From the NCBI GenBank assembly GCA_017858055.1, contig JAFMCA010000022.1:1-34596 (forward strand): a DNA stretch of 34,596 nucleotides. The letters are read 5' to 3'. Source of the stretch: Flavobacteriaceae bacterium (lineage in GTDB: Bacteria; Bacteroidota; Bacteroidia; Flavobacteriales; Flavobacteriaceae). Shown one piece after another: positions 10,989-31,623 of this stretch. Under the pieces are notes generated by a model. The model had not been told where the DNA came from. It saw nothing but the letters and a program-made list of their open reading frames with translations, and made no database searches. Position 1 is the first letter of the stretch; every line of letters starts with the position of its first letter. Both the position numbers and the translations under genes were made by a program.

Positions 10989-11912
10989 ATGAAAAGGATA
11001 AAAAGCACATTCAGCATTAAAAATCTAGAGAACCTCTCTGGTATTAAAGCTCATACGCTGCGCATTTGGGAAAAGAGATATAACCTTCTCGAGCCCGACA
11101 GAACCGATACCAACATTAGACGTTATAGTTTGGAAAGTTTAAAAAGACTTTTAAACGTGACCCTATTGTACAATCACGGTTTCAAAATTTCAAAAATTGC
11201 TGGTCTTAGTGATGAAGAAATTCCAGAATTAGTAAGGAGTATTGCATTAAAATCGAATTCAGAACAAGTATCCATCAATGCTTTTAAACTGGCAATGATC
11301 AATTTTGATTATGAATTATTTGATGAAAACTACAATGAAATTCTTCAACATCATGATTTTCAGCATATTTTTCTAAATGTGTTTATGCCGTTGATGCGTG
11401 AATTAGGAATTTTATGGCAAACCTTTGCTATTTCGCCTTCTCACGAGCATTTCATCACTAACCTTATCAAACAAAAAATTCATTTACAAACCGAATCCCT
11501 TCAGCGTACAAAAGCAAGAAGGAATGATCATCCTCCTTTTGTATTGTTTTTGCCGGAAAATGAAATCCACGAACTTGGTTTGTTGTATCTGAATTATTTA
11601 ATTCTAAACAGCGGCTATCGCACCATCTTCTTAGGGCAATCGATTCAAAATTCAAGTTTGGAAACGCTTTACAGTTATAATTCTGAGTATTACTTTGTGA
11701 CTTACCTTACTGTAGAACCCAATAAGGAGGAAATTATGCCTTTTGTTAATGATTTTCACACGAATTTATTAGAGGGAAGAAATTCAAAATTACTCGTTTT
11801 TGGTCCTCAACAGATCGAAATCGACCTAACGGCTTTACCAGGACAGATTGAATTGTATCGTTCTGTAGAGTCTTTTTCCTCAAAATACCTCGAAGAAAAC
11901 ATTTTAGTTTAA
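10989..11912 (+). CDS. CarH-like MerR-family regulator with cobalamin-binding domain
   Basis: Probable repressor of carotenoid genes, possibly sensing light or B12. From the ATG at 10989 it has 307 residues: MerR winged helix (about 8-75, FSIKNLENLSGIKAHTLRIWEKRY), a four-helix bundle (about 95-170), and a Rossmann cobalamin domain (about 183-300). The helical part has the Wx9EH motif (W143, E153, H154), which in CarH packs over adenosylcobalamin. The Rossmann part has ExHxxG (E192, H194, G197), where the His is the lower cobalt ligand, then a TxL at the expected distance; the final GG is GP. The residue after W143 is Gln, where Thermus CarH has the upper-ligand His132. crtB follows 62 nt downstream. 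B12 binding is inferred, not shown. Confidence 0.9.
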   Translation: MKRIKSTFSIKNLENLSGIKAHTLRIWEKRYNLLEPDRTDTNIRRYSLESLKRLLNVTLLYNHGFKISKIAGLSDEEIPELVRSIALKSNSEQVSINAFKLAMINFDYELFDENYNEILQHHDFQHIFLNVFMPLMRELGILWQTFAISPSHEHFITNLIKQKIHLQTESLQRTKARRNDHPPFVLFLPENEIHELGLLYLNYLILNSGYRTIFLGQSIQNSSLETLYSYNSEYYFVTYLTVEPNKEEIMPFVNDFHTNLLEGRNSKLLVFGPQQIEIDLTALPGQIELYRSVESFSSKYLEENILV

Positions 11913-23327: not shown

Positions 23328-23355
23328 CAGACCTATTCATTTAATTCATTTGTTA

Positions 23356-25728
23356 ATGATTCCAAAAAAAATGTGGTGTCTACCACTATTTTTTTTCTCT
23401 TTTTATTTAATCGGTCAGAATACTTATGTGCTCAGCGGTTATGTTTCGGATGCAGAAACCAATGAAAAACTAATCGGCGTAAATGTGTTGTTCCCAGAAT
23501 TGAAACAAGGAACAACAACAAATGAATACGGTTTTTACTCCCTCAGTATTCCACCTGGAATACAACAACTTGTAATAAGCTATTTAGGATTTGAAAGTGT
23601 AACGCAAAGCATTAACTTTTCTAAAGACACTGTTTTTGAGGTTAAATTGAATCCAGCCGTTGAAATATTAGAAGAAGTTATTTTAAATGAAAATGTAGAA
23701 CGTTTGAACCTCAAAAGTCCTCAAATGAGTGTTAATTCCTTAGCAATTAGTACCATAAAGAAAATGCCTGCTGCGTTGGGTGAGGTGGATATTATTCGTT
23801 CGATTACCCTGCTCCCTGGAGTTACCAATGGTGGTGAAGGCTCGTCGGGATTTAATGTCCGCGGTGGAGCTGCAGATCAGAATTTAATTTTATTGGATGA
23901 GGCTATTATTTTTAACTCCTCTCACCTCTTTGGCTTTTTCTCTGTTTTTAATCCAGATGCTATCAAGGACATCAAACTTTACAAAGGAGGCATTCCTGCC
24001 AATTATGGCGGACGCCTGTCTTCCGTACTTAACATCTACCAAAAAGACGGAAACAGCAATGATTTTAATGCACAAGGGGGCATGGGTCTAATCTCAAGTA
24101 GATTACTACTTGAAGGGCCTATAGAAAAAGAAAAGGGTTCATTTCTCATAGGTGGAAGAAGCAGCTATGCGCATTTATTTTTACCCCTTGTTGAAAGTGT
24201 TGGAGACAACAAAGGCTATTTTTATGACCTTAACACCAAACTAAGTTATACACTAGACTCCAAAAACAACCTTTTCCTTTCTGGGTATTTTGGAAGAGAT
24301 GTCTTTGACATTGCCAATTTGTTTAACAACGCCTACGGCAATTCGGTAGCAAACTTCCGCTGGAATCATTTGTTTTCAAATCAACTGTTCTCAAACCTCT
24401 CCTTGATCTATTCCGATTACGATTACGGGCTTGACTTTAGCTTTGCAGATTTTGTTTGGAATTCAAGCATCGTCAATTTTAATTTCAAATACGACTTTAA
24501 GCATTATTTGAATGAAAAAATCAAATTGGAATACGGCCTGAACAGTATCTATTACAAATTTGATCCAGGTTTAATAGAACCCACCAAGGAAGATTCTCAA
24601 GTTCAAACCAATAAATTAACTGATAAATTTGCAGTTGAAAGTGCTCTCTATATGGGGATAAACTATCAATTTAATGCGAAAACGAGCCTTCAAGTGGGCG
24701 GTAGACTCAGTAATTTTATACGCCTTGGGCAACAATTAAATCGATACGCAGACAACAACCCCTTGAATTACAATTCTGCTTTAAAACTTTATCAAAGCGC
24801 AGATCCCATTGGCGTAGAAACCTATTCTAAAGGAACCCTACTCAAGAATTTCACCAATTTTGAACCCCGTCTGGCTTTGTCCTATCTCAATAACACGAAC
24901 CAATCGTTTAAATTTAGTTATAACAGAATGGTACAGTACCTGCATTTGATTTCGAATACCAACTCCCCCACTCCCATTGATATTTGGGCACCAAGTGGGC
25001 GTTTTATCAATCCTCAATTATTAGATCAATTTGCCTTTGGGTATTTTAAAACCCTCCCTTCAAATGGTTATAATTTGGAATTGGAAGTTTTTCAAAAATT
25101 CATTCAAAACCGATTGGACTATATCGACGGTGCAGAGCTCATTGCAAATAATGCTATTGAGCAAGTACTCTTAAGCGGTCGGGCTAAAGCCAGAGGCTTG
25201 GAACTTTTAATTCGAAAAAATGAAGGCAAATTAACCGGTTGGATTGCCTATACTTTATCCCGCTCTGAACAAAAAACCCCTGGAAGAACCCCCACAGAAA
25301 TAGGAATAAACAATGGAGAATGGTATTTCACTCCCTATGATAAAACCCATGACATTTCTATAACAACAAATTACGCATTAAATAAAAAATGGGATTTGAA
25401 TGCCAACTTCTTGTTTCAAACGGGGCAACCCATCACCTACCCCGAAGCCCAATATCGTTTTTTGGATTTTTCAATTCCCAATTTTGAAAAGAGAAACAGC
25501 AGTAGGCTACCCAGCTATCACCGTTTTGATCTTTCTGCAATCTATACCCCTGATCGAAGTCAAAAAGCGTTTTCTGGACAATGGGTTTTTAGTATTTTCA
25601 ATGTTTACAACAGAAAAAATGCAGCTTCCATTCGGTTTCAACAAAATAGTGATACCGGTCAAAACGAAGCCATCCGCTTGTCCATTTTTGGAATAATCCC
25701 CTCCGTAACCTATAATTTTAAATTTTAA
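23356..25728 (+). CDS. TonB-dependent receptor with carboxypeptidase-like N-terminal domain
   Basis: Outer-membrane active transporter of 790 residues from ATG 23356; an in-frame TTG at 23350 is less likely. The signal peptide ends FYLIGQN. The N-terminal CarboxypepD_reg-like domain (about 25-110: LSGYVSDAETNEKLIGVNV, then TTNEYGFYSLSIPPG) is typical of Bacteroidota receptors. The plug (about 120-240) has GFNVRGGAADQNLILLDEA and YKGGIPANYGGRLSSVLNI. The barrel ends with SIFGIIPSVTYNFKF. The DUF4249 lipoprotein gene overlaps it by 1 nt, a pairing seen widely in Bacteroidota and analogous to SusC/SusD. The substrate is unknown. Confidence 0.94.
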   Translation: MIPKKMWCLPLFFFSFYLIGQNTYVLSGYVSDAETNEKLIGVNVLFPELKQGTTTNEYGFYSLSIPPGIQQLVISYLGFESVTQSINFSKDTVFEVKLNPAVEILEEVILNENVERLNLKSPQMSVNSLAISTIKKMPAALGEVDIIRSITLLPGVTNGGEGSSGFNVRGGAADQNLILLDEAIIFNSSHLFGFFSVFNPDAIKDIKLYKGGIPANYGGRLSSVLNIYQKDGNSNDFNAQGGMGLISSRLLLEGPIEKEKGSFLIGGRSSYAHLFLPLVESVGDNKGYFYDLNTKLSYTLDSKNNLFLSGYFGRDVFDIANLFNNAYGNSVANFRWNHLFSNQLFSNLSLIYSDYDYGLDFSFADFVWNSSIVNFNFKYDFKHYLNEKIKLEYGLNSIYYKFDPGLIEPTKEDSQVQTNKLTDKFAVESALYMGINYQFNAKTSLQVGGRLSNFIRLGQQLNRYADNNPLNYNSALKLYQSADPIGVETYSKGTLLKNFTNFEPRLALSYLNNTNQSFKFSYNRMVQYLHLISNTNSPTPIDIWAPSGRFINPQLLDQFAFGYFKTLPSNGYNLELEVFQKFIQNRLDYIDGAELIANNAIEQVLLSGRAKARGLELLIRKNEGKLTGWIAYTLSRSEQKTPGRTPTEIGINNGEWYFTPYDKTHDISITTNYALNKKWDLNANFLFQTGQPITYPEAQYRFLDFSIPNFEKRNSSRLPSYHRFDLSAIYTPDRSQKAFSGQWVFSIFNVYNRKNAASIRFQQNSDTGQNEAIRLSIFGIIPSVTYNFKF

Positions 25729-26549
25729 TGAAAACTATTTGGCTTTACTTAATGCTACTGATTGGATTGCTGTTCAGCTCTTGTGAGGATGTCGTTGAGA
25801 TAGACCTTAATTATACTAACGAACGCTTGGTTATTGAAGGGCAGCTCAATTGGATTAAAGAAACCAAAAAAACAGAACAACTCATAACGTTGTCCAAAAC
25901 CACTCCCTATTATGAAAACATAAGAATACCGGCATCGGGAGCTGAGGTTTTCATTAAAGACGAGCAAAACAACACGTATTCATTTAAAGAAAAAGAAAAT
26001 ACAGGGATTTATTATCCTTTAGATTCCCTTCCCTTTTTACCCAATGAAAAATTTATTCTTGAAATTGAGTTTGAAAATCAAAAATATCGTGGGGAAGAAG
26101 TCTCCTATCCAGTGGCCCCCATTTTTGAAATCAAACAAGATAGCATCCTTATTTTTGGGACTACAGCTACTCAAATAGAAGCTTACAGCCAAGACCCTGA
26201 GGAGGAAGTTAATTATACGTATTTTGAATTCAGCAGTGCAAGATTGGAAAACACCGAATACAATGTATATCGGGATGATTTTTCAAATGGTTCCCAATAT
26301 TATGGAGTGTTGTTAGACCGAGATTTTGAAAAAGGGGATCAAGTACGCATACGTCAATACAGTATTTCTAAAACTGCCTACCAATATTGGTTTTTGCTTC
26401 TCCTACAAAACACGCAACAAGGTGGTCCTTTTCAAACAACTCCCGCAAATTTAAACAGTAATGTGGTGAATCTAACAAAACCTGAAAACTCCCCTTTAGG
26501 ATATTTTCGAGTCTCTGAAGTTTCAGAAGTGTTTTATACAATCAAGTAA
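25728..26549 (+). CDS. DUF4249 lipoprotein paired with the TonB receptor
   Basis: Cell-surface lipoprotein of 273 residues; the signal ends LLFSSC (Cys 19), followed by EDVVEIDL, the family's usual start. The next part (LVIEGQLNWIKE, TLSKTTPYYENIRIPASGAEVFI) is a beta-sandwich-like segment, and the C-terminus has NLTKPENSPLGYFRVSEVS. It is translationally coupled to the upstream receptor (TAATG). Likely role: the substrate-capturing partner of the receptor. DUF4249 function is known only by association. Confidence 0.9.
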   Translation: MKTIWLYLMLLIGLLFSSCEDVVEIDLNYTNERLVIEGQLNWIKETKKTEQLITLSKTTPYYENIRIPASGAEVFIKDEQNNTYSFKEKENTGIYYPLDSLPFLPNEKFILEIEFENQKYRGEEVSYPVAPIFEIKQDSILIFGTTATQIEAYSQDPEEEVNYTYFEFSSARLENTEYNVYRDDFSNGSQYYGVLLDRDFEKGDQVRIRQYSISKTAYQYWFLLLLQNTQQGGPFQTTPANLNSNVVNLTKPENSPLGYFRVSEVSEVFYTIK

Positions 26550-27262: not shown

Positions 27263-29503
27263 TTACCCAAGAAAGGGTTGCTTGTAGAACCGTTTGCCTT
27301 GCGCTTGGTACAGTGCATTGGCAAGAGCTCCAAAAGTTGGCGGATAGGTTGGCTCTCCCAGTCCAGTAGGGTCAAGATCATTTTTTACAAAATGAACCTC
27401 AATTGCATCTGGTGCTTCCTCCATTCGAATCATTCGATACGTATCAAAATTATTTTTATCTGGTTTTCCTTGATCAAATTTAAGTTCCCCATAGAGGGCA
27501 GTCCCTATGGCGTCAACCACTCCCCCTTCTGCCATATTTTTCGCACTGTCAGGATTAATTACTATTCCGCAATCAATAGCGCAAACTACTTTTTTAACAC
27601 GAGGATTTCCAGCTTCCATTTCAAGTTCCAAAACCTGCGCTACATAGGTATTATGACAAAAATATGCGGAAACACCCCGATGTCTAGATTGAGCTCCATG
27701 ACTCCAATTTGATTTCTCTCTAACGAGTTCTAAAACTCCTGCATAACGTTTTGGATCATAGTCATTCCCTTTCCCTACGGGCTGCTTTTGTGCGTTTTGA
27801 AGTAATTCTAAACGGAAAGCAATAGGGTCTTTCCCTGCTGTTTCTGCAACCTCATCCAAAAAAGATTGTTCTGCACTTGCCATAAAATTAGACCGAGGAG
27901 CTCGAAAAGATCCTACCGTAATATTAGAATCTATCGTCCAGTCTTCTGCAAGATAATTGGGTACAGCTCCAGCTGGAAATCGATTTTCTGATATGGGGCT
28001 TTCGGGTATTCCCCCTGCATTGACATGAAATGCAATTAATTGACCGTTAGCGTCCAAACCAGCTTTGTATTTGATTTGGTAGGAAGGGCGGTATATCCCG
28101 TAGGTCATATCATCTTCTCTGGAATAGATCAATTTTACGGGGGCTTCCATTTTTTGTGAAATGAGAGCAGCTTCTACCAACCAATGGGCGTATGATCTTC
28201 TCCCATAACCTCCCCCGAGTCTAGACATTTTTATTTCAATATTTTCAAGAGGAATCCCTAAACGTTCCGACAGAGTTTGTTCTGTAAATTCAGGTTTTTG
28301 AAGAGGACCAATAAGTTCAGCTTTATCGCCTCTTACGTCCGCAAAAAAGTTCATGGGCTCCATACAGTTGTGAGCTAAAAAGGGGGCTGTATATGTGCGC
28401 TCAATAATTTTTGCAGCAGATCCAAAGGCAGCTTCTGGATTGCCATCTTTTCTTCTAATCTGAGCAGGGTGTTTTGCTCTGGCTTCCATAAGTCGATAAT
28501 GATCTGAAGTGCTTTCCAATCCCGCTGGTGTATGTTGTTCCCATTTCGAGCCGAAACGATCTCTTGTTTCTGTAGTGCTCTCTATGGGTACAGAATGAAT
28601 TTGGACTTCTTTTTTTGCCTGCATGACTTGCCAAGTGGTTTCTCCTACGATAACGGCAACTTCATTGTAAGTTCGAGTATCAAAAAACTTTTTTTCAAAA
28701 TCATCATTAAAGACTTTTATCTTAAACACATCCCGTATGCCTGGCATAGATTTAGCACGATTCATATCAATTGATTCCAGTTTTAAACCAAAAGCAGGTG
28801 GATGAATGAGCATTGCAGTTAGCATTCCCTCCCGATGAGTATCGATTCCAAAAAGAGGTTTTCCAGTAACTATGTTGTTTATTTCAACGTTCTTTTGAGA
28901 CACGCCAATTAGGGTAAAGTCTTTTATCTTTTTTAATTCAACCTTTTCAGGTACGCTACGCTTTGCAGCAAGTGAAGCCAAATCGCCATAACCTATAGTT
29001 TTGCCGCTTTTTTCATGCACTACTAGACCACTTTTAGTTGTCAACTCAGCCAATTCAACATTCCAGAGAGCTGCAGCAGCTTCTTTAAGCATCGCTTTGG
29101 CACTAGCACCTGCCATTCGTAGACCTTGCCATCCACGACGTATGCCTTGACTTCCTCCAATAAATTGAAAACTAAATGCAGCTGTATCCAAGGGTGCTTG
29201 TTCCACAATTACATTTTTCCAATCTATATCCAACTCATCCGCTACAATCATGGGCATGGATGTTTTTACGTTTTGACCCCCTTCGGGATTAGGAGACAAG
29301 ATTGTAACCCTTCCATTTTCACCTATTTTTAAATAGCTATTTATTTCAAACCACTCCTTAGGTAAATTTTTAGTTTCTAATGGATTCCCCTGGGTAAGAT
29401 CACAAGAATTTAAAAAACCAAACCCGAGAACAAGACCGCCACTTGCCAAACTGCTGTTTTGAATGAAAGCCCTTCTACCTATGCTTGTTTTGAATGAAGT
29501 CAT
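27263..29503 (-). CDS. Molybdopterin-binding oxidoreductase large subunit (IorB/xanthine dehydrogenase type)
   Basis: Periplasmic molybdenum hydroxylase subunit, 746 residues. A twin-arginine signal (SIGRRAFIQ, R10-R11) points to folded, cofactor-loaded export; LNSC after the hydrophobic stretch could be a lipobox. NPEGGQNVKTSMPMI and the two aldehyde oxidase/xanthine dehydrogenase-type domains follow, with LGGGYGRRSYAHWLVEAA, SFRAPRSNFMASAEQSFLDE, and GLGEP near the C-terminus (catalytic Glu). The layout matches isoquinoline-1-oxidoreductase beta subunits, which need a [2Fe-2S] partner; no such gene lies beside it on either side. Substrate unknown. Confidence 0.92.
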   Translation of the reverse strand: MTSFKTSIGRRAFIQNSSLASGGLVLGFGFLNSCDLTQGNPLETKNLPKEWFEINSYLKIGENGRVTILSPNPEGGQNVKTSMPMIVADELDIDWKNVIVEQAPLDTAAFSFQFIGGSQGIRRGWQGLRMAGASAKAMLKEAAAALWNVELAELTTKSGLVVHEKSGKTIGYGDLASLAAKRSVPEKVELKKIKDFTLIGVSQKNVEINNIVTGKPLFGIDTHREGMLTAMLIHPPAFGLKLESIDMNRAKSMPGIRDVFKIKVFNDDFEKKFFDTRTYNEVAVIVGETTWQVMQAKKEVQIHSVPIESTTETRDRFGSKWEQHTPAGLESTSDHYRLMEARAKHPAQIRRKDGNPEAAFGSAAKIIERTYTAPFLAHNCMEPMNFFADVRGDKAELIGPLQKPEFTEQTLSERLGIPLENIEIKMSRLGGGYGRRSYAHWLVEAALISQKMEAPVKLIYSREDDMTYGIYRPSYQIKYKAGLDANGQLIAFHVNAGGIPESPISENRFPAGAVPNYLAEDWTIDSNITVGSFRAPRSNFMASAEQSFLDEVAETAGKDPIAFRLELLQNAQKQPVGKGNDYDPKRYAGVLELVREKSNWSHGAQSRHRGVSAYFCHNTYVAQVLELEMEAGNPRVKKVVCAIDCGIVINPDSAKNMAEGGVVDAIGTALYGELKFDQGKPDKNNFDTYRMIRMEEAPDAIEVHFVKNDLDPTGLGEPTYPPTFGALANALYQAQGKRFYKQPFLG

Positions 29504-29689
29504 TTTCTGAAAAATATATGTTCGATCTAATTTACAACATAAAATAGGTTAGACAAAAGCTGGGTTTAAATAGTATAGCCTCAATAAATTACTGTCAAAA
29601 AATAATCAATTCAAGAAAGCGATCCCTGATCACAAATTGAGTAAACACTCGAGAGTATTCTATTTTTTTTTGAGATATATTTTTTATTT

Positions 29690-29704
29690 AATAGTATTAC
29701 TATT
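29690..29704 (+). promoter_or_regulatory. Perfect 7-1-7 palindrome upstream of the export operon
   Basis: AATAGTA-T-TACTATT, a perfect inverted repeat of 7-nt arms around one base. It abuts, and shares one base with, the -7 box at 29704-29711, a natural repressor position. The regulator is unknown. Confidence 0.5.
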
Positions 29705-29711
29705 ATATTTG
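29704..29711 (+). promoter_or_regulatory. -7 box TATATTTG for the export operon
   Basis: Perfect TAnnTTTG, 36 nt before the small ORF's ATG at 29740. No TTTG at the usual -33 spacing, which may mean an activator is needed. Confidence 0.5.
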
Positions 29712-29739
29712 CGCTTAAATAAATTAAAAAAAGATTGTA

Positions 29740-29868
29740 ATGCTTTTAATACCGTTTGCTGCCTGTTTTTATTTTTTTATAAAATACTCTAAAAACCAGT
29801 ATCCAGTTTCATTAAACCTCCATTCCACTGAAAAGATAAAAACAAATAAAAAGTTTACGCCTGCTTAA
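29740..29868 (+). CDS. Possible 42-residue peptide at the head of the export operon
   Basis: ATG 29740 to TAA 29868, preceded by an A-rich stretch with AAAG. Residues 2-14 are hydrophobic (LLIPFAACFYFFI); the rest is polar and Lys-rich and ends KFTPA. There is no double-glycine leader motif and I recognise no family. It lies directly after the -7 box, with the ABC gene 90 nt downstream, so it may be a leader peptide, a small membrane protein or an exported peptide. It may also be a chance ORF in AT-rich DNA. Confidence 0.35.
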   Translation: MLLIPFAACFYFFIKYSKNQYPVSLNLHSTEKIKTNKKFTPA

Positions 29869-29958
29869 AAAAATATCCAAATGCTTTCATAACGTTTTCA
29901 TCTTAAACAAAACCATAATTCATACAATTCAAGTCTTTCAATTCTGTTAATTCCTTTT

Positions 29959-31623
29959 ATGAATACTTCAACATCTAAAACTTGGTCCAGATTTTTTAAT
30001 CTCCTCTCGTTAGAAAAAAGAGATATCTTTCAAATATTCAACTACGCTATTTTTACAGGAGCTTTGGCATTATCTCTTCCATTGGGGATCCAAGCCATTG
30101 TGAATCTTATTCAAGGGGCTCAAATATCGAGCTCTTGGATCATTTTGGTCATATTAGTTACTTTGGGGGTGAGTTTCACTGGAACGCTTCAGTTAATGCA
30201 ACTACGAATTATAGAAACACTTCAGCAGCGTGTGTTTACTCGTGCCAGTTTTGAGTTAAGTTATCGATTTCCAAAACTCAAAATGAATGCATTACGCAAC
30301 ATCTATCCCCCAGAACTTGCCAATCGTTTTTTTGATACCCTAAGCATTCAAAAAGGATTTGCAAAAATCCTTATTGATGTTCCAACAGCTTTAATACAAA
30401 TTGTCTTTGCTCTCATTCTTTTGTCTTTTTACCATCCGTTCTTTATCTTCTTCGGTCTGGGTCTGATATTATTGATGATTTTTTTATTTCAATATACCGT
30501 AAATCGAGGTCTGAATACTTCACTGGAAGAGTCGAAACACAAGTACCGTGTTGCCCATTGGATTCAAGAGATTGCTCGTTCAATCGTTAGTTTTAAGCTT
30601 TCTTCTACTTCGGATTTAAGCATGAAAAAAACCGATCAGTACGTTTCAAAATATCTGAATGCACGAGAAGCCCATTTTAGAGTAATCAAATTACAATACA
30701 TCAAATTAATTGGATTTAAAGTAGCAATTACCTCCGGTCTTTTAATTATTGGAGGCATCCTGGTTCTGAATCAACAAATGAATATTGGGCAGTTTGTGGC
30801 TGCAGAAATAATTATACTCTTGGTTATTGCTTCAGTAGAAAAATTAATCGTAAATCTTGAAACCTTATACGATATGTTGACCTCAATTGAAAAATTAGGC
30901 CAATTGGTTGATTTAGAAATCGAAAATCAAGAAGGTAAAATGTTGAATGAAAACGATCCCTTTATATTAGAACTAAAGGATATTGAATATGCAGTGCCCG
31001 ATTTAGAAAAACCCATTTTATCAGAAATTAATTTAAAGATACAACCCAAAGAAAAGATTTTAGTGCAAGGAGGCTCAGGTTCGGGGAAATCAAGTTTACT
31101 CCGTATACTCTCTGGCATTATTGAACCAACTAGAGGTACTGTTTTTGTCGGTCAGCACAACCTTAAAGCTTTACAATTACAAAGTTATCGCTCTACATTG
31201 GGCCTTTCTTTGTCAGATGAAGTCCTTTTCGAGGGTACAATTAGGGAAAATATAACGCTTGATGATGAAAACATTACAGAGACCACCATTCAACATCTCA
31301 TGGATGTTTTACATTTAGATAATTTTATTAAAACCTTGCCTCTTGGTCTTGAAACGATTATTCATCCTGAGGGTAAAATAATTTCCCAATCCACAAGTAA
31401 AAAACTTATTCTTGCACGAGCAATTTTACGCAAACCCCAAGGACTAATCTTGGAAGACCCTTTGGATGTCTATACTCCAGACGAATCAAAAAAAATTATT
31501 AATTATCTCTGTCTTGACAAGCATCCATGGTCAATGATTGTTGTAAGCAATAATGATTTTTGGGAAGAAAAATGTGATAAAATTATTCAATTAAACAAAG
31601 GAAAAATTAACGTTTTAAAGTAA
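29959..31623 (+). CDS. ABC exporter (type I secretion-like) with degenerate nucleotide-binding domain
   Basis: Membrane-ATPase subunit of a tripartite exporter, 554 residues: six-helix membrane domain (about 20-310) and nucleotide-binding domain (about 335-554). There is no N-terminal C39 peptidase. Walker A is intact (GGSGSGKS, 371-378). The other motifs are altered: the Q-loop Gln aligns with S419 (LGLSLSDEVLF); the LSGGQ signature is ISQST (475-479); Walker B plus catalytic Glu is LILED (496-500), so Asp-Glu is swapped to Glu-Asp; the H-switch His is N531. The frame is unbroken and the fold sequence is otherwise normal, so this is not a pseudogene. Genes for an HlyD-type adaptor and a TolC-type channel follow. 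Confidence 0.9.
   Translation: MNTSTSKTWSRFFNLLSLEKRDIFQIFNYAIFTGALALSLPLGIQAIVNLIQGAQISSSWIILVILVTLGVSFTGTLQLMQLRIIETLQQRVFTRASFELSYRFPKLKMNALRNIYPPELANRFFDTLSIQKGFAKILIDVPTALIQIVFALILLSFYHPFFIFFGLGLILLMIFLFQYTVNRGLNTSLEESKHKYRVAHWIQEIARSIVSFKLSSTSDLSMKKTDQYVSKYLNAREAHFRVIKLQYIKLIGFKVAITSGLLIIGGILVLNQQMNIGQFVAAEIIILLVIASVEKLIVNLETLYDMLTSIEKLGQLVDLEIENQEGKMLNENDPFILELKDIEYAVPDLEKPILSEINLKIQPKEKILVQGGSGSGKSSLLRILSGIIEPTRGTVFVGQHNLKALQLQSYRSTLGLSLSDEVLFEGTIRENITLDDENITETTIQHLMDVLHLDNFIKTLPLGLETIIHPEGKIISQSTSKKLILARAILRKPQGLILEDPLDVYTPDESKKIINYLCLDKHPWSMIVVSNNDFWEEKCDKIIQLNKGKINVLK

Follow-up and report, generated by a model that had tools for sequence, protein, structure and literature searches.

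A putative TolC-linked exporter family of the Bacteroidota with an ABC-type membrane domain and a degenerate or missing nucleotide-binding domain

The 34,596-nucleotide stretch of Flavobacteriaceae DNA analyzed here (the window) encodes an ABC-exporter-type half transporter with a degenerate nucleotide-binding domain (NBD). Comparison with its relatives suggests that it is part of a tripartite exporter that works with TolC and has an ABC-exporter transmembrane domain (TMD) at its core; the ATPase of this exporter is probably no longer the engine, and transport is most likely secondary-active. An earlier note on this DNA had proposed an undescribed system in which ATP may be bound and its hydrolysis impaired, or a gate driven otherwise, and this proposal has gained in plausibility because the whole family is degenerate and some of its members have no NBD.

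RESULTS

The window gene encodes an exporter-type protein with altered catalytic motifs

ORFs and Pfam matches agreed with the earlier description of a 554-residue half transporter with HlyD and TolC partners; the HlyD and TolC genes lie directly 3' of the ABC gene, and all three ORFs are intact (Table 1). No other ORF of the window matched the family profile (E <= 1e-5), so that, as far as members of this family are concerned, the scan agrees with the statement that a second ABC gene is missing there. The protein scored above the cutoff of Pfam ABC_tran and below that of ABC_membrane (21.1 versus 28 bits), its PDB sequence matches were ABC proteins (best 60 of 447 distinct sequences), and the 25 NCBIfam matches listed for it were all below the model cutoffs, TIGR03796 and TIGR03375 being the nearest among them. 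An AlphaFold2 model of the monomer (mean pLDDT 84) predicts a full-length type IV ABC exporter fold, that is, a six-TM domain plus an NBD, with TMD helices assigned by DSSP to residues 20-52, 59-106, 124-156, 161-207, 220-270, and 276-317. When the model was compared with the PDB, TM-scores of up to 0.86-0.88 (query) were obtained over the full length with the TM287/288 chains and TmrAB, and HlyB/D was also among the fold matches. The adaptor additionally matched TIGR01843 at 2.3e-30, below the cutoff of that model.

The register of the motifs was checked in one profile alignment with canonical ABC exporters of the same genome, one of which (L003) has Q, LSGGQ, DE, and H at the columns altered in the window protein. 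Ser419, ISQST, the ED pair, and Asn531 were all found where the earlier note had placed them, by translation as well as by profile alignment, and the Walker A motif is intact; the complete catalytic set (Q-loop, LSGGQ, DE, and His) is absent from the window protein, all four elements being altered. The three best-scoring other exporters of the genome share 20-24% identity with it.

The upstream neighbor of the operon is a molybdopterin-binding oxidoreductase gene on the opposite strand; a molybdopterin-cofactor-binding (xanthine dehydrogenase-like) large subunit is encoded at 27263-29503 (-). At 23350-26549 (+) an ORF for a TonB-dependent receptor-like protein shares one base with the next ORF, which encodes a DUF4249 protein. 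A promoter-like motif of this phylum is TAnnTTTG, and the site at 29704 was not above chance (43 sites found versus 45 expected in the window).

Table 1. Features of the window operon and of its ABC-type protein
Feature	Position	Strand	Basis
ABC-exporter-type half transporter, degenerate NBD, 554 aa	29959..31623	+	ORF and translation, Pfam ABC_tran, AlphaFold2
TMD, residues 1-319, six long helices	29959..30915	+	DSSP on AlphaFold2 model
Coupling helix 1 region, residues 117-121 (PPELA)	30307..30321	+	short helix in model
Coupling helix 2 region, residues 209-214, contains F212	30583..30600	+	short helix in model
TM6 Glu283, candidate proton-binding residue	30805..30807	+	conservation
TM6 Glu294-Lys295 pair	30838..30843	+	conservation; hydrophobic stretch
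Degenerate NBD, residues 337-554	30967..31620	+	model; ABC_tran 4.5e-18
Walker A, intact, GGSGSGKS, residues 371-378	31069..31092	+	translation
Q-loop position, Ser419 replaces Gln	31213..31215	+	translation, profile alignment
Signature position, ISQST (475-479) replaces LSGGQ	31381..31395	+	translation, profile alignment, family comparison
Walker B end and catalytic carboxylate, Glu499-Asp500 replaces DE	31453..31458	+	translation, alignment, family comparison
H-loop position, Asn531 replaces His	31549..31551	+	translation, alignment, family comparison
HlyD-family periplasmic adaptor, 442 aa	31629..32957	+	Pfam HlyD_3 1.6e-11; family-neighbor profile 660 bits
TolC-family outer membrane channel, 465 aa	32994..34391	+	Pfam OEP 1.8e-36; family-neighbor profile 484 bits

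The family is spread through the Bacteroidia

A 28-row family profile found a match in 198/395 sampled genomes of the window's class, Bacteroidia, and close relatives were present in 95 of the 296 genomes of its order, Flavobacteriales (E <= 1e-60). Closer to the window the distribution was patchy: a family gene occurred in 6/40 relatives' genomes, window included (E <= 1e-40), and the same threshold gave no match in 24 genomes of the same genus (G001-G024), only four of which are listed as at least 90% complete. Because these same-genus genomes, many of them incomplete, have no match, the window copy may have been gained sideways or kept alone.

The matches listed in a phylum-wide search formed two groups, scoring at least 381 bits or at most 187 bits, and fusion and fragment matches from elsewhere scored between them (211-380 bits). 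Proteins below 200 bits, ORFs running off a contig end, and duplicates by C-terminus were left out, and the 239 proteins then classified comprised 206 core relatives with an NBD, 14 outgroup proteins (L263-L276, from other classes of the phylum), and 19 proteins lacking an NBD. The outgroup was one side of a support-100 branch in a maximum-likelihood tree; when a FastTree tree was rooted on it, the root fell inside the outgroup. At least three core proteins (L247, L258, L277) also come from other classes, and 80 of the loci stem from a search that retained the nearest relatives, most of which carry the names of Flavobacteriaceae genera.

An N-terminal extension of low conservation is present in class-level relatives (L198-L209) and outgroup proteins (L263-L275) that are about 620-830 aa long, and one genome (G333) has two family copies of this long form (L203, L204). 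The extension aligns poorly and gave no Pfam match in the seven long relatives scanned; at a guess, it could be what remains of the C39-like domain found in HlyB/LssB.

Catalytic motifs are lost throughout the core

A survey of homologs, as the earlier note had suggested, revealed that the motif changes are repeated among the 206 core relatives with an NBD. LSGGQ was found in none of them, DE in 4, the H-loop His in 3, and the Q-loop Gln in 12, and when the Gln, LSGGQ, Glu500, and His positions were tallied together, 165 proteins kept none, 40 kept one, and a single protein kept two. The Walker B/Glu pair was ED in 110, KD in 29, EE in 14, EN in 8, DD in 8, and ND in 5, others accounting for the rest. 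A strict Walker A motif was present in 184/206, and some of the 22 altered motifs differ only mildly (Arg in place of Lys, or a different last residue). On the tree these alterations amount to 13 steps, no more than about 6 of them being required by well supported branches, and HlyD and TolC were kept at all ten altered-Walker A loci inspected. Because most relatives have kept the strict motif, nucleotide binding probably still matters in them.

The outgroup, which was divided from the core after its motifs had been seen, has Walker A in 14/14 proteins, DE in 13/14, and His in 11/14, with neither Gln (0/14) nor LSGGQ (0/14). This combination suggests that the signature and the Q-loop were lost first, the catalytic Glu and the His later, and Walker A last.

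Homologs with canonical motifs would, according to the earlier note, have marked the window copy as decaying. Proteins of other classes do retain DE and His, as just described, but the loss is lineage-wide and not a decay of the window copy. That this copy is a pseudogene, or a sequencing artifact of the window's assembly, is hardly credible: its motif changes are common to the core relatives, the three ORFs are uninterrupted, and wherever a column is at least 90% conserved (81 in the TMD and 16 in the NBD), its residue is the one most frequent in the family, for which reason a single decaying copy was rejected. These data outweigh the lack of same-genus matches (0/24, with the completeness given above) and the missing TetR gene beside the window copy, no TetR match being found by profile in the window (upstream stretch 29504-29958), versus 76 of the 80 named loci.

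Constraint on NBD and TMD is inverted relative to a canonical control

In pairwise comparisons of 205 core proteins, the NBD was the better conserved domain in only 37/20,910 pairs, with mean identities of 0.36 for the NBD and 0.59 for the TMD. In contrast, among 30 orthologs of a canonical exporter from the window's own genome, a control that represents a single family, the NBD was the better conserved domain in 419/435 pairs (identities of 0.67 for the NBD and 0.44 for the TMD). Domain constraint is therefore inverted in the family relative to this control, and the outgroup is intermediate (NBD better conserved in 20/91 pairs).

The NBD has been lost two or three times

TMD-only genes (332-339 aa), followed by HlyD and TolC genes, were found at nine loci (L259-L262, L289-L293), and at ten others (L279-L288) the TMD is fused to HlyD in one ORF of 744-781 aa, with TolC after the ORF in 10/10; HlyD sequence and TolC are thus present at 19/19 NBD-less loci. 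In Pfam scans, four TMD-only proteins matched ABC_membrane and not ABC_tran, and three fusions matched HlyD models and not ABC_tran, ABC_membrane being weakly matched in one. The nine TMD-only proteins and nine fusions among the 198 positive genomes are a minimum, with 21 of the 45 genomes that gave weak or incomplete-looking matches retrieved; the tenth fusion, L288, came from the order-level search.

The 92-row maximum-likelihood tree, calculated from TMD columns, contains three changes of NBD presence. The TMD-only proteins form a clade (support 99) that lies within proteins with an NBD (supports 96 and 97), nine of the fusions form another clade (support 100), and L288 sits on a long branch as a separate third loss. 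FastTree also gave three NBD-less groups with 239 rows, and the neighbors of L288 differed, being L297 in this tree and L068/L085 in the maximum-likelihood tree. The NBD has accordingly been lost two or three times; two losses are well supported, and the third is unsure because of the long branches of L288, L296, L297, and L298. All fusions may have a single origin, for which the starred branches leave room.

An NBD that was split off and is recognizably encoded elsewhere was rejected, since the NBD profile gave no match above 175 bits in 15 NBD-less genomes (nine TMD-only and six of the ten fusion genomes). Family NBDs scored 293-356 bits in four control genomes, whereas ordinary exporters score up to 177 bits, a background at which a very diverged NBD would also score. 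We also rejected a frameshifted NBD concealed in the interval between the TMD and HlyD genes: the two genes overlap by 8 bases at 7/9 TMD-only loci and are 34 and 66 bases apart at the other two.

These losses bear on the possibility of a slow but real ATPase, in which Walker A and E499/D500 would hydrolyze ATP in an unusual geometry and sustain export at a low rate, as the earlier note had imagined for the ED swap. An alternative catalytic geometry is not borne out, given that the pair varies and the NBD can be lost. The prevalence of strict Walker A (184/206) and of ED as the commonest pair would fit such an enzyme, but the signature, Q-loop, and H-loop are gone too, many relatives have K, N, R, or H at position 499, several lineages have an altered Walker A, the NBD is much less conserved than the TMD, and two or three lineages have lost the whole domain. 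We consider a slow ATPase quite improbable.

The operon contains HlyD and TolC and no partner ABC gene

The order of the family operon is TetR–ABC–HlyD–TolC. Of 160 loci, 123 have TetR at -1, 155 have HlyD at +1, and 155 have TolC at +2; a profile search detected HlyD at 157 and TolC at 156 of these loci, and where HlyD was missing (three loci) the sequence stops at the ABC gene or no more than 190 bases from it. A conserved cargo gene was not observed; beyond TetR, HlyD, and TolC no neighbor cluster occurred in more than 15/160 loci. In three outgroup genomes of one family (L272, L273, L275) a uvrA gene immediately precedes the operon, and at one TMD-only locus (L290) a separate ABC ATPase gene (11019-11867), taken as unrelated, lies past TolC and one further gene.

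In heterodimeric exporters such as TM287/288 and TmrAB, a degenerate half is combined with a canonical one, and the window protein shares their degenerate NBD motifs. The earlier note had accordingly considered a partner ABC protein encoded elsewhere. Such a pairing would suit the top fold matches of the model, which are TM287/288 and TmrAB, and the canonical exporters present in the window's own genome; degenerate sites in exporters other than homodimers are described in the available part of PMC7756269. Unlike TM287/288 and TmrAB, however, the family gene has no canonical partner next door: no exporter half was found in the operon at 200 loci, where 14 other ABC-like ORFs occur near the family gene and the three within 120 bases are UvrA. 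The own-genome candidate L003 is a general exporter found in 52/60 genomes, including one (G054) without the family gene (E <= 1e-60), and TMD-only or fused versions would need a partner supplying both NBDs. No stand-alone family NBD was recognized in the 15 NBD-less genomes either. The data thus give a partner no support, and we regard a heterodimer as improbable, though conceivable with a half transporter encoded elsewhere.

Charged residues of the TMD predate the loss of the NBD

Ten TMD residues (E86, K132, K136, S192, K195, G277, E283, K295, D305, and K312) are present in 203-206 of the 206 core proteins and in 19/19 NBD-less proteins. Only E283, E294, and K295 among the conserved charges fall within a hydrophobic stretch (the TM6 19-mer 280-298). 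The comparison with the canonical control was restricted to TM6 columns because TM2-TM5 of the control align badly with the family profile (gaps in 16-26 of 30). At these columns, Glu283 was conserved in 205/206 core, 13/14 outgroup, 9/9 TMD-only, and 10/10 fusion proteins versus 1/26 aligned controls, and K295 in 205/206 core, 9/9 TMD-only, and 10/10 fusion proteins versus 1/29 aligned controls. K132, K195, and K312 (14/14) and most of the conserved TMD charges are already present in the outgroup; the charges are older than the NBD loss and were therefore not gained with it.

Other positions differ in the NBD-less forms. The fusions have lost H159 (10/10), R123 (9/10), E119 (9/10), and E191 (8/10), and their D126 is mostly Glu; residue 301 is non-acidic in 6/9 TMD-only proteins. 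In coupling helix 1, E119 is kept in 202/206 core and 9/9 TMD-only proteins and in 1/10 fusions. Position 212 is Phe in 200/206 core proteins; in the nine TMD-only proteins it is Tyr in five, Phe in one, and Glu, Ile, or Leu in one each, with Lys213 replaced by Arg in 9/9, and in the ten fusions it is a gap in six, Tyr in two, Val in one, and Gln in one. The predicted coupling-helix-2 region thus changes along with the NBD, and in TMD-only proteins it appears altered and not plainly removed.

The conserved TMD also bears on the main rival to secondary-active transport, a passive or scaffold role in which the TMD would hold and gate the HlyD-TolC channel as a ligand-gated conduit (facilitator), the substrate flowing down its own gradient or being fed by another pump, and ATP binding being regulatory where it is kept. 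A conduit would explain why the NBD could be lost while TMD, HlyD, and TolC remain and why HlyD was fused to the TMD at ten loci, and energy coupling in the family is itself a prediction. Nevertheless, with 83/305 TMD columns at least 90% conserved and charges retained in TM6, the domain looks like an energized moving machine, and the NBD-less ABC precedents in the available parts of PMC13316013 and PMC4979069 are proton-coupled. We take the passive role to be unlikely, though less so than the other alternatives.

DISCUSSION

Taken together, the lost motifs, the inverted constraint, the lost NBDs, and the retained TMD charges make it very unlikely that ATP hydrolysis by a window-type NBD is the power source. 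In the mechanism that we favor, the window protein would be the inner-membrane subunit of the TolC-linked tripartite exporter. Its NBD, which lacks the parts of a hydrolyzing site and with which some lineages have dispensed, would be a relic whose Walker A motif may still bind ATP and which might serve as a dimerization or gating clamp. TMD charges (E283, E294-K295, E86, K132, K136, K195, D305, and K312) would take up protons or another ion, this uptake would drive alternating access of the TMD, and a small-molecule or peptide cargo would be handed to HlyD and then to TolC. Transport as such, its proton coupling, the remaining role of the NBD, and the kind of substrate are what we infer here: the HlyD and TolC partners point to export, and the TetR neighbor suggests a small ligand. 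The conserved TM6 Glu suggests proton coupling as in SbmA, and proton drive of this kind is, by analogy, our best guess for the family.

SbmA, of the SbmA/BacA group (SLiPT), is known already as an NBD-less relative of ABC TMDs that works as an importer; according to the available part of PMC13316013, it is proton-driven via a glutamate ladder, has an extra TM0 domain, and is without coupling helices. The present family, in contrast, is a putative exporter, the NBD persists in degenerate form in most members, and the TMD-only forms retain coupling helix 1; the window protein has the domain that SbmA/BacA lack, and 19 relatives do not. Neither the window protein nor the NBD-less proteins scanned (four TMD-only and three fusions of the 19) matched the SbmA/BacA Pfam model, the scanned family proteins matching PF00664, ABC_tran, or HlyD-type models. 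To our knowledge, SbmA has no HlyD/TolC operon.

A second precedent is provided by truncated exporters that, in the available part of PMC4979069, still export as ABC exporter TMDs without an NBD, MsbA-MD by proton-coupled efflux and LmrA-MD by apparent ethidium-proton symport. These are artificial truncations, whereas the removal of the NBD in the family is natural and fixed in several lineages. The three-part architecture is common to type I secretion (HlyB/HlyD/TolC, LssB) and NHLM exporters, and the window operon has the HlyD and TolC genes of the former; the competent ATPase of type I secretion, however, is not predicted for the family, in which the motifs are altered or the NBD is missing. 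A TolC-linked pump with an HlyD-like adaptor that is driven by the proton gradient exists in EmrAB-TolC, although its inner-membrane subunit belongs to the MFS and is not an ABC TMD.

No description of the family was found in searches of the open-licence PMC literature; it did not appear in the available parts of reviews on tripartite systems (PMC8277102) and on degenerate sites (PMC7756269), of a SbmA/BacA survey (PMC12003926), or of a Chryseobacterium genome paper (PMC9366087). Nor did these searches yield a series of TolC-linked proteins that includes living intermediates and fusions of TMD and HlyD.

The family may show how an exporter lineage driven by ATP was naturally converted to secondary-active transport, with the stages still visible, through loss of signature and Q-loop, then Glu and His, then Walker A (repeatedly), and finally the NBD, a reading for which we see the case as evenly balanced. 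With the same even confidence, the conversion may end in TMD-only and single-chain TMD-HlyD pumps, an ion-driven ABC-fold tripartite class beside those of the MFS and RND type. Studying the change from primary to secondary transporter is difficult, since what SbmA reveals is mainly the end point. Here the intermediates are living and have the same partners throughout, so that the outgroup (DE and His), the window type (Walker A only), Walker A-less forms, TMD-only proteins, and TMD-HlyD fusions would be comparable in one assay. In about half of the sampled genomes of the class, profile tools score as an ABC ATPase a gene whose product is probably not one.
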